DNA of 64,000 nt from NCBI GenBank assembly GCA_029550925.1, contig JAKPGL010000111.1:1-64000 (forward strand). The letters run 5' to 3'. Positions within the stretch are counted from its first letter, which is position 1. Each line of letters opens with the position of its first letter. Positions 25,105-28,170 of this stretch are shown here, piece by piece. This DNA is from Planctomycetota bacterium. GTDB lineage: Bacteria > Planctomycetota > Planctomycetia > Pirellulales > Thermoguttaceae. The position numbers were made by a program, and so were the translations under genes. The notes beneath the pieces were generated by a model. That model was given only the letters and a program-made list of their open reading frames with translations, had not been told where the DNA came from and did no database searches.

Positions 25105-26031
25105 ATGCACGAAGGGCCTCTCGCTTATCTCAATGGGCATTTTCTACCGGCCAAGCAATTGGCCATTTCCGTAATCGACGCCGGGTTTGTGCTAGGCGCT
25201 GCGGTAACAGAGCAATTGCGGACATTTCGGGGGGAGATTTTTCGATTGCAATCGCATCTGGATCGGCTTTGGAGGTCGTTGGACGTGGTGGGGGTCGATC
25301 CAGGTCTGAGCCAGCAGGAGATGGCCGAGGTGGCCCGACAATTGACAGCCCATAACCACCGGCTGCTTCAGCCGGGAGACGACCTGGGGTTAGGCATTTT
25401 TGTTACTCCAGGGCCTTATCTGGGCTATTCGGAACGGTTGGTGGAGGTGCGTCCGACGGTATGCCTGCACACGTATCCGTTGGCGTTTTGGCTATGGGCC
25501 AAGAAGTATCGGCAGGGACAAGCGTTATGGCTGAGTTCGGTGCAGCAGGTGGACTCGGCCTGTTGGCCGACGTGGCTGAAGTGCCGGAGTCGGATGCACT
25601 ACTACCTGGCCGACCGCGAAGCCGCCCAAAAGGAACCCGGCGCTCGGGCCGTCCTTATGGACCGGGAGGGGTTTGTTCGAGAAACTTCGATGGCCAATAT
25701 CGTGGTGTATCGGGCGAGCGAAGGGTTGCTTTCTCCTCCGTATGAGCAGATTTTGCCGGGCGTCAGCTTGGAAACGATTTTTGTTTTGGCCGACCGACTG
25801 GGAGTTCCGAAGACGTTTCGGCCTCTTCGGGCAGAAGATTTGGCCTTGGCAGATGAGCTTATGATTACCAGCACGCCCTTTTGTGTTTTGCCTGTTACCC
25901 GGTTCCAGGGGCGTCCGGTAGGCGGCGGAGAACCGGGGCCAATGTTTCAACAGCTACTTCGGGCTTGGGGCGAAGAAGTGGGCGTTGATATCGTCGCTCA
26001 GGCCGAACAGTTTGCTGAACGAAACAGATAA
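25105..26031 (+). CDS. Class IV aminotransferase (IlvE/PabC-like)
   Basis: The 308-aa fold-type IV PLP enzyme starts MHEGPLAYLNGHFLPA with SVIDAGFVLGAAVTEQLRTF, the usual N-terminal block. Lys159 in WLKCRSRMHYYLADREA aligns in spacing with the PLP lysine of BCAT and D-amino-acid aminotransferases, followed by RETSMANIVVY (phosphate-binding loop) and LMITSTPFCVLPV. It could be a branched-chain aminotransferase, a D-amino-acid aminotransferase or aminodeoxychorismate lyase; motif differences from IlvE make the substrate uncertain. The ATG at 25105 follows GGAAGG; the in-frame TTG at 25081 is rejected. Confidence 0.85.
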   Translation: MHEGPLAYLNGHFLPAKQLAISVIDAGFVLGAAVTEQLRTFRGEIFRLQSHLDRLWRSLDVVGVDPGLSQQEMAEVARQLTAHNHRLLQPGDDLGLGIFVTPGPYLGYSERLVEVRPTVCLHTYPLAFWLWAKKYRQGQALWLSSVQQVDSACWPTWLKCRSRMHYYLADREAAQKEPGARAVLMDREGFVRETSMANIVVYRASEGLLSPPYEQILPGVSLETIFVLADRLGVPKTFRPLRAEDLALADELMITSTPFCVLPVTRFQGRPVGGGEPGPMFQQLLRAWGEEVGVDIVAQAEQFAERNR

Positions 26032-26125
26032 CTCTTCCGAAACGTTCGGCATGAGAGACTTCCGGTCGAGCAGTGTTTCACTTTTCCCGAATTTTTCTTC
26101 CACGATACGAAACTTTGCCGTCGAT

Positions 26126-26155
26126 TTGACAAGGACCGTTTTATAACCTACTAAT
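26126..26155 (+). promoter_or_regulatory. Promoter of the riboswitch leader
   Basis: TTGACA (26126-26131) matches the consensus fully; ACTAAT (26150-26155) at 18-base spacing is the best -10, four of six. The same spacer is seen at csrA. Transcription would begin near 26162, about 35 bases before the aptamer. Confidence 0.6.
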
Positions 26156-26194
26156 TGTAATGGTGGGAAATAATGTTCCTAATGTATTGACGCT

Positions 26195-26290
26195 TATGCC
26201 CGAAGAACCCGAAAAGGCAAACCGGTCGTAAGATCGGGGCGCAAAGCCATGGGACTTCCCCCCGGGAGTTCGCCAGGCTGCCGAAGGTCC
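26195..26290 (+). ncRNA. Cyclic di-GMP-I (GEMM-I) riboswitch aptamer
   Basis: The conserved GEMM-I order is present: GGCAAACC (26216-26223), a hairpin CCGGTC-GTAA-GATCGG with a GNRA tetraloop (26222-26237), GGGGCGCAAAGCC ending at 26248, a second arm with paired GGGACTTCC and GGGAGTTC, and the closing GCCAGGCTGCCG (26272-26283). These are the ligand-pocket strand, tetraloop and receptor features of class I c-di-GMP aptamers. It lies on the plus strand ahead of a TadG-like surface gene, a sensible target for c-di-GMP control. Confidence 0.87.
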
Positions 26291-26384
26291 TCCGAGGGCA
26301 AGGCGAGAAGCTCGTCCACTGCGGGCTGAGGTTTTCCTCCCCCCGAAGAAACGAAGCATCTCGCTTGTCGGAGGAACCCTCGCC
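26289..26384 (+). promoter_or_regulatory. Predicted expression platform with alternative pairings over a ribosome site
   Basis: CCTCCGA (26289-26295) pairs with TCGGAGG (26368-26374), burying the Shine-Dalgarno GGAGG at 26370-26374. A nested helix is 26300-26308 with 26359-26366. CGAGGG (26293-26298) can instead pair with CCCTCG (26377-26382), and GGCGAG (26302-26307) with CTCGCC (26379-26384), so at least two exclusive folds exist. The site is 10 bases before an ATG at 26385. Translational switching by c-di-GMP is inferred. Confidence 0.6.
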
Positions 26385-26699
26385 ATGACGCCCGTCGATC
26401 TTACGAACCGGTTAGCAAATACTCTTTTCCGACCCGAGGAAGCCCCTCTATTGAGAAGGTCTTTTATGGGGCAATCTTCTGGAGGTTACAATTGCCGAGA
26501 ATTGGTATGGGGCCGGGGGTTAGGAGGAATCTCGGCACATCTATGGGTCGGGTATATTTTCGTTGCCCGCGCTATTTTTTCGGCGCCGAGGGTCTTCGCT
26601 CGGCCCGAACAAATTTCGGGGAGAATAGGTTCGCAATGTTCGTTTTCTCATTTTTTATGGGAGGAGAGCATCCATGAGACCTACAGCTATCCGAACTGA
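26385..26699 (+). CDS. Possible 104-aa leader ORF under the riboswitch
   Basis: The frame opens with ATG at 26385, 10 bases after GGAGG that sits in the predicted expression platform, and ends at 26699, overlapping the first 26 bases of the TadG-like gene in another frame. The translation (MTPVDLTNRLANTLFRPEEA...) has no recognised domain and is Arg/Phe-rich, so it may be a coupling or leader ORF rather than a functional protein. It is called only because of its well-placed ribosome site and the RNA structure over it. Confidence 0.3.
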   Translation: MTPVDLTNRLANTLFRPEEAPLLRRSFMGQSSGGYNCRELVWGRGLGGISAHLWVGYIFVARAIFSAPRVFARPEQISGRIGSQCSFSHFLWEESIHETYSYPN

Positions 26700-28170
26700 A
26701 GGCAGGAAATGGTTCACCAAAAGCCGAACAGGCCCCCGAGGGGCTGCTGGTAGCCAGAGCGGCCCAGCCGCCTCTTTGCCCAAGGGCCGAAACGCTCGTC
26801 GCCGTCGAGGGGCCATTCTGGTCTTGGCCACCATGTTGATGGTGGTGTTGGTCGGAATGGTGGCTTTCGGTGTGGATTTGGGCTATGTTGTGTTGACCCG
26901 GACGGAGTTGCAAACCGCCGCGGACTCAGCTGCCTTGGCTGGTGCGGGCGCAGCGGCCGAAGGCAAAGAGGCTGCCACTCAAGCCATCTACCAATTTGCC
27001 AGCCTCCATTCAGCGGGCGGCCAACCGATCACCCCCGATCAGGTCGAAATCCGTTACGGCCTGTGGGATAAAAACAGCCGGACCTTTATCCCCAGCAGTA
27101 TGGAATGTTCTGCGGTAGAAGTTACCCTGCGAACTTTCGACCGGCCGCTGTTTTTCGGCCGAGTGCTCGGCAAACAGTTCTTCCAATCGGAAGCCAAGGC
27201 GATTGCCACCTTTGCTCCGCGGGACATTATGCTGGTGTTGGACTTTTCGGCCTCGATGTGCTACGACAGCCAACTTCGCTCCATTTCTGATTTGGGCCAG
27301 GCCGCCGTGGAAGCGAACCTGTTTCAGATTTATCAAGCGCTAGGTTCGCCCACGTTCGGCAAGATGCAATGGACCCCGCAATATATCAGCTCCCGTACGG
27401 TTTCTACCGTCAAAAGCACGTTGGGGCTGACCAGTGTGCCGTATCCTTATCCAGGCGGCTCCTGGGATGAGTATATCCAGTATGTGATGAACGACAGTTA
27501 TATCTACCAGGCGGGTTACCGGAAAAAATATGGGTATCTGACCTGGGTCAATTACCTGCAAGCTAAACGATATCTATACAGCAATACGCCTGATTTGTGG
27601 AAAGTCCCCGAGCAGCCGATCACCGCTCTGAAGGATGCGGTGGATGTGCTGGCTGCCTATTTGGAAGAGAATAGCCCGGAGGATCGGCTGGGGCTGGCGA
27701 TTTATACGTCCAGTAACAGTACGGCGGTGCTAGAAAGCCAATTGACGGAAGATTTTCAGAGCGTCGCTCAGATTGTCCGTCATCGGCAGGCAGGGCACTA
27801 TAACGCCTATACCAACATCTACGACGGTATGAAGGCGGGCCGACTCGAACTCCAGAATAACGCCCGCGCAGGCGCCCGACGCGTGATGGTCCTGATGACC
27901 GACGGCCAGGCCAACCTGCCGAGCAATGAGACGGTCGGCAAACAGAAAGCCCTTGAAGAGGCCTATGCCGCCGCCGCCGCTCGGATCCCGATCATCACGA
28001 TCGCCCTGGGCACCGATGCGGACGACAGCTTGATGCAGCAAATCGCCGATATCACCCGCGGGGCCTACTTCAAAATCCCCGGCGGGCAATCGGTGGCCGA
28101 GTACGAAGAGCAACTCAAAGAGGTCTTCCGTATGGTGGCCGCCGACCGAAACCTCGTCCTAGTACAATAA
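26674..28170 (+). CDS. TadG-like protein with von Willebrand factor A domain
   Basis: The 498-aa product has a basic N terminus, RRRRG, then one membrane helix (about 47-69) and GVDLGYVVLTRTELQTAADSAALAGAG, the typical TadE/TadG putative Flp-assembly start. A vWA domain follows from about 183, with the metal-ion site DFSAS (190-194) and later VLMTDGQANLP and ALGTDADDSL; a long Tyr/Trp/Ser-rich insertion lies after the first MIDAS motif (about 200-310). The ATG follows GGGAGGAGA. It is expected to be an inner-membrane-anchored extracytoplasmic protein in Tad-type pilus or adhesion functions. The upstream c-di-GMP riboswitch supports a role in attachment. No other tad genes are next to it. A strong terminator follows at 28249. 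Confidence 0.88.
   Translation: MRPTAIRTEGRKWFTKSRTGPRGAAGSQSGPAASLPKGRNARRRRGAILVLATMLMVVLVGMVAFGVDLGYVVLTRTELQTAADSAALAGAGAAAEGKEAATQAIYQFASLHSAGGQPITPDQVEIRYGLWDKNSRTFIPSSMECSAVEVTLRTFDRPLFFGRVLGKQFFQSEAKAIATFAPRDIMLVLDFSASMCYDSQLRSISDLGQAAVEANLFQIYQALGSPTFGKMQWTPQYISSRTVSTVKSTLGLTSVPYPYPGGSWDEYIQYVMNDSYIYQAGYRKKYGYLTWVNYLQAKRYLYSNTPDLWKVPEQPITALKDAVDVLAAYLEENSPEDRLGLAIYTSSNSTAVLESQLTEDFQSVAQIVRHRQAGHYNAYTNIYDGMKAGRLELQNNARAGARRVMVLMTDGQANLPSNETVGKQKALEEAYAAAAARIPIITIALGTDADDSLMQQIADITRGAYFKIPGGQSVAEYEEQLKEVFRMVAADRNLVLVQ

Follow-up and report, generated by a model that had tools for sequence, protein, structure and literature searches.

An anti-aptamer strand behind a c-di-GMP-I riboswitch aptamer in the leader of a planctomycete TadG-like gene

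The window, that is, the whole 64,000-nucleotide stretch of DNA analyzed here, belongs to a planctomycete of the family Thermoguttaceae, the closest named relatives of which are metagenome assemblies of Thermoguttaceae and Pirellulales. A c-di-GMP-I riboswitch aptamer lies on the forward strand between the gene of a class IV aminotransferase (PF01063; 25081–26031, same strand) and that of a TadG-like protein with a vWA domain. The features discussed below are as follows.

26126–26131, forward strand: possible -35 box TTGACA, 17 nt before TACTAA (26149–26154)
26207–26286, forward strand: c-di-GMP-I riboswitch aptamer (GGC subfamily model), from the RF03167 and RF01051 covariance models
26220–26241, forward strand: P2 and J2/3 strand of the aptamer, which doubles as the 5' arm of the anti-aptamer stem, from the MFE pairs
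26289–26295, forward strand: 5' strand of the helix burying a Shine-Dalgarno sequence (SD), CCTCCGA, from sequence and MFE
26368–26374, forward strand: 3' strand of the same helix, TCGGAGG (with the SD GGAGG before ATG 26385), from sequence and MFE, with an equivalent helix in relatives
26385–26699, forward strand: leader ORF of 104 aa opened by the buried SD, with no family match and no codon-position signal
26389–26413, forward strand: anti-aptamer strand, an imperfect reverse complement of 26220–26241, from RNAduplex, MFE and shuffles
26415–26429, forward strand: outer stem extension (GC, CTTTTC) pairing with 26211–26218, with the weak U-tract CTCTTTTCC inside, from MFE
26659–26666, forward strand: the vWA gene's own Shine-Dalgarno, GGGAGGAG, from sequence, with AGGAGA kept in all three members of the genus
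26674–28170, forward strand: TadG-like vWA protein of 498 aa (Tad, VWA and Tad_C), from Pfam

The 498-aa protein matched PF13400 (6.4e-12), PF00092 (3.6e-11) and PF09977 (2.2e-06), and thus carries both a Tad N-terminal domain and a VWA domain. The link between a riboswitch and a TadG-like vWA gene, proposed in an earlier sequence-only reading of this DNA, is borne out by these domains together with the aptamer scores given below. Outside the genus, the nearest named vWA homologues (L137 and L138) had no riboswitch within 1.5 kb ahead of their genes. The leader appears to possess its own promoter with TTGACA at 26126, and TTTGACA is found at the same place in two sister species (G001 and G002; the species of the window is G000). 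A consensus scanner detected neither a sigma-70 consensus promoter nor a canonical terminator in 26000–26720.

The aptamer was matched by RF03167 (c-di-GMP-I-GGC) at 26207–26286 on the forward strand with 66.4 bits (gathering threshold 59; E-value of 1.7e-13) and by RF01051 (c-di-GMP-I) with 68.7 bits (gathering threshold 35), in agreement with the riboswitch class named in the sequence-only reading. The conserved elements and the GNRA-capped hairpin named there can be read as well: the pocket motifs AAAAGGCAAACC, GGGGCGCAAAG and GCTGCCG are present, the P2 tetraloop is GTAA, and the residues contacting c-di-GMP, G20, A47 and C92 (PMC4744006, PMC3764141), are all found when the positions are mapped by hand. 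The GGC model was preferred by E-value despite the canonical A at site 47; the RF03167 consensus (ACGCGAAGCC) has G at this site and the window has GCGCAAAGCC, which departs from the GGC subfamily. Thus, the pocket is that of a canonical c-di-GMP-I aptamer, the GGC label notwithstanding. Judged from its sequence, the aptamer is a genuine member of the known class c-di-GMP-I, and would be expected to bind c-di-GMP. A search with RF01051 found only this one copy in the 4.9-Mb assembly, which encodes six GGDEF domains. In the alignment of the three species of the genus (G000, G001 and G002), the aptamer is near-invariant and the remaining leader has diverged.

Directly behind the aptamer, CCTCCGA (26289–26295) pairs with TCGGAGG (26368–26374), precisely where this helix had been placed before, and the pairing was present in the MFE and in every other fold computed (the segment 26287–26400 folded with a z of -2.3). 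In the sister species, the helix is full in G001 (9 pairs around GGAGG) and partial in G002. Covariation in homologous leaders had been suggested as a check, and in 14 leaders from other genera within the family, the corresponding hairpin (GCAACC...GGTTGCCATG) was paired in 84.7% of cells with three pairs changed on both sides. The SD helix is therefore real and conserved in kind, which would suit a translational switch, in which c-di-GMP would shift CCTCCGA between the SD and another partner (either CCCTCG or, in an extended P1/P0, 26199–26206) and thereby expose the SD of ATG 26385. In many relatives, P0 pairings of 4–6 bp (e.g., TGCAAA/TTTGCA) do overlap the hairpin strand GCAACC, and in G009, G083 and G058:C128 the buried SD and ATG directly start the Tad gene. 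Nevertheless, we regard such a switch as unlikely in the window. The probability of the SD being unpaired was ~0 both in the free fold and with the aptamer P2 forced, so the helix, paired in both computed states, is not the switching part. Furthermore, with only 58.6% paired overall in the related leaders, P0 was rejected as the helix that switches in general, and it is weak in the window. G028 and G005 have lost the start codon and still keep the hairpin. The rival fold CGAGGG/CCCTCG (26293–26298/26377–26382) had also been anticipated; its letters exist, but it is absent from the MFE, which instead pairs 26380–26382 with 26282–26284 of the aptamer, and we set it aside as a minor fold. Finally, ATG 26385, earlier taken for the start of the vWA gene, opens the 104-aa leader ORF instead, and the vWA gene is preceded by a separate SD, 290 nt downstream. 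Burial of the SD at 26370 hence cannot reach the vWA gene, although termination can, and the leader of the window departs on both counts, a helix present in both states and a buried SD that is not that of the vWA gene, from a translational riboswitch sequestering an SD. The earlier picture of SD burial as the switch fits G009, G083 and G058:C128 better than the window.

The strand most likely to be responsible for switching lies just beyond the feature outlined in the sequence-only reading, which included the aptamer and the SD helix but missed 26389–26429. In the MFE, the anti-aptamer stem comprises 22 bp (26220–26226/26407–26413, 26227–26236/26396–26405 and 26237–26241/26389–26393), encloses P3 and the SD helix, and covers ATG 26385. 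The fold of 26190–26435 had an MFE of -111.5 kcal/mol with a z of -5.28, and none of 200 shuffles was as good. The window formed 24 pairs to the P2 region of the aptamer against a shuffle mean of 5.5, a number reached in one of 200 shuffles, and the duplex of the anti-aptamer and aptamer strands had a z of -4.07 in RNAduplex. The MFE loses P2 once the transcript extends past ~26396, and forcing the P2 hairpin cost 18–19 kcal/mol at 37 C and 13.7 at 65 C. In the computed folds, the two structures are mutually exclusive, as the anti-aptamer stem excludes the aptamer. The stem of the window is the strongest among those computed, yet the scanner found no terminator and the U-tract CTCTTTTCC is weak, with 5 T in 8, ~11 nt past the 22-bp stem, and paired with GAAAAG at the 5' end of the aptamer.

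Between G000 and G001/G002, three differences in the aptamer P2 (G/A, U/C and A/G) were matched downstream (C/U, A/G and U/C) when compared by hand using the alignment and folds, the third match being paired in G001 only. Forcing P2 cost 11.5 kcal/mol in G001 and 8.9 kcal/mol in G002, and folding of the whole leader gave weak z values of -1.2 and -1.5, respectively. The strong static bias toward the anti-aptamer fold (19 kcal/mol), the weak U-tract and the sole aptamer found in the genome could be read as signs of a relic, whose platform drifted in the genus of the window and whose aptamer folds or not whatever the ligand, with no switching. We consider this highly improbable, given that the aptamer is near-invariant in the three species against diverged other parts of the leader and that the complementarity was maintained through the matched changes.

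We searched 296 genomes of the order with a covariance model built from 16 such aptamers. The matches fell into two main types, type A before Flp pilin/TadV and type B mostly before TadG-like genes; type A aptamers are wrapped in a larger structure, and the window belongs with type B. Fourteen type-B leaders of the same family outside the genus of the window, which share ancestry, were aligned. Most of them have TGCGTCTCGTCACTCGCG or a variant directly after the hairpin, complementary to CGCGAGGTCGGGACGCA of the aptamer, and then a U-tract. RNAalifold recovered this anti-aptamer stem unprompted, in a register different from that of the window. The cells of the stem were paired in 92.4% of 224, against 25–59% when the strand was slid, and the T content was 65% in the 12 nt after the stem against 21% over the next 200 nt. 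In 11 of the 14 leaders, the stem is part of the MFE and runs into the U-tract, and the anatomy of a terminator (a G+C-rich stem, then directly a U-tract) is thus present; it was absent from the MFE of G035, G007 and G097. Covariation in the stem was thin (one doubly changed pair; 26 of 500 in the shuffle control) since the aptamer strand varies so little, and shuffle tests of single relatives were often not significant, 0–25% of shuffles reaching the observed pairing. G028, G005, G127 and G234 keep the anti-aptamer stem although their hairpin is not followed by the usual start codon, which suggests a constraint on the RNA rather than on a peptide.

The anti-aptamer strand is not a trait of all GEMM-I leaders in the order, since such a strand with a T-tract was seen in none of 28 type A (Flp-pilin) leaders as opposed to 15 of 25 type B leaders (20% when shuffled). 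The type A loci (L003, L004, L006, L007, L010 and L012–L017, with the aptamer near 1501) precede the genes of Flp pilin (DGPTAVEYAVMLALI) and TadV, and their conserved wrap consists of GGCCTGC, GCCTC and CATC upstream, GGATG, GAGGC and GCAGGCC downstream, and a GGGTTCC/GGAACCC hairpin. Apart from the aptamer, no Rfam family matched at these loci. The genome of the window carries a Flp pilin gene at L140 (G000:C228:29437–29598); with a single c-di-GMP-I aptamer found genome-wide, this gene apparently does without the type A riboswitch that many relatives have. Related aptamers with another platform were found in G143:C94 (L089), G140:C53 (L094), G280:C1 (L120), G230:C1 (L132) and G263:C322 (L117); in G140, G263, G280 and G230, the next gene starts like a response-regulator receiver domain (ILVADDS).

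The ORF opened by the buried SD showed little sign of being a gene. We found no Pfam or NCBIfam match for 26385–26699, the mismatches by codon position among the three species were 21/12/15, 21/15/13 and 7/13/12, and the gaps between the sister species were not multiples of three and break the frame; we therefore rejected it as a conserved gene. In L041 (G009) and L080 (G083), the frame that opens in the riboswitch hairpin runs on without interruption into the Tad gene, and the anti-aptamer strand accordingly encodes the first residues of the protein (MSVCASSLAF in G009). The upstream ORFs of L040 (G015), L038 (G029), L076 (G097) and L056 (G007), 87–95 aa in length with a loose C.LC...P...RR pattern seen by eye, possibly represent a small protein in those genera. 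The leader ORF of the window matters for a reading that couples translation to Rho, in which the anti-aptamer strand buries the start of the ORF, and c-di-GMP frees it so that translation protects the RNA against Rho as far as the vWA gene. The stem does cover that start codon, the ORF (104 aa in G000 and 89 aa in G001) reaches the vWA gene, which it overlaps by 26 nt in the window, and a riboswitch controlling an upstream ORF with Rho termination has a precedent in Mycobacterium tuberculosis (PMC12810186). However, neither a coding signal nor frame-preserving gaps accompany the ORF, and the overlap was not kept in G001 and G002, leaving this reading improbable.

Altogether, we propose that the leader is probably an ON-type class-I c-di-GMP switch, in which the ligand blocks strand invasion of the aptamer and so prevents termination and burial of the start site before Tad genes. 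RNA polymerase would make the aptamer first, which would fold, and the strand transcribed next, 26389–26413, would complement the P2 arm of that same aptamer. Without c-di-GMP, this strand is predicted to invade P2 and form a long stem around P3 and the SD hairpin. In the members of the family, the stem and U-tract would act as an intrinsic terminator to which the aptamer contributes the 5' arm, an anatomy that predicts an ON switch; the stem would also cover the start codon behind the buried SD and close the start site. With c-di-GMP bound, the invasion would be blocked or delayed, and the polymerase would read into the TadG/vWA gene. The fold preference of 19 kcal/mol is beyond what a ligand could plausibly offset at equilibrium, so that the switching would have to be kinetic. 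The U-tract of the window is weak; it may still terminate, or the leader may instead act through Rho or burial of the start site, and burial together with Rho is the main alternative to termination there.

The aptamer shares its architecture, G20/A47/C92 and the control of surface and adhesion genes with Vc2 and Vc1 of Vibrio cholerae (RF01051/RF03167; PMC4744006). For Vc1, no apparent terminator or anti-SD was reported (PMC4744006), whereas the platform here is a downstream strand complementary to P2. Bc1 of Bacillus thuringiensis is likewise a c-di-GMP-I riboswitch whose expression platform is long and which uses intrinsic termination, but it terminates at two separate hairpins located past the aptamer (PMC11218506), in contrast to the terminator proposed here, for which the aptamer strand supplies the 5' arm. 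Transcriptional riboswitches of the pbuE/yxjA type also set a terminator strand against a ligand-stabilized aptamer co-transcriptionally (PMC7707468, PMC9756952), although with another aptamer class; here the invasion would affect P2, and P3 would persist within the loop of the terminator. Similarly, aptamer and terminator share strands in the HMP-PP riboswitch with its terminator-embedded aptamer (PMC6478431), but that aptamer is unrelated, and here a distant complementary strand would dismantle the aptamer. The Mbox leader of M. tuberculosis resembles the present one in placing a small upstream ORF between riboswitch and main gene (PMC12810186), except that the leader ORF here bears no sign of coding constraint. 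In a limited search of the open-access literature, we found no description of an anti-aptamer expression platform for c-di-GMP-I, and no paper on c-di-GMP-I riboswitches in planctomycetes or on their Tad pili in relation to c-di-GMP.

More tentatively, it is possible that the switch operates at two levels, one strand being at once antisense to the aptamer, the 3' arm of the terminator and the first downstream codons, that the anti-aptamer strand was rebuilt in another register in the genus of the window with the logic kept, and that c-di-GMP turns on TadG-type pilus genes across the family. The leaders of this group are well suited to studying co-transcriptional strand invasion: they share the aptamer but oppose it with an anti-aptamer strand in either of two registers, some having a start codon and others lacking one. 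The proposed switch specifies how c-di-GMP could control the Tad pilus or adhesion proteins of planctomycetes.
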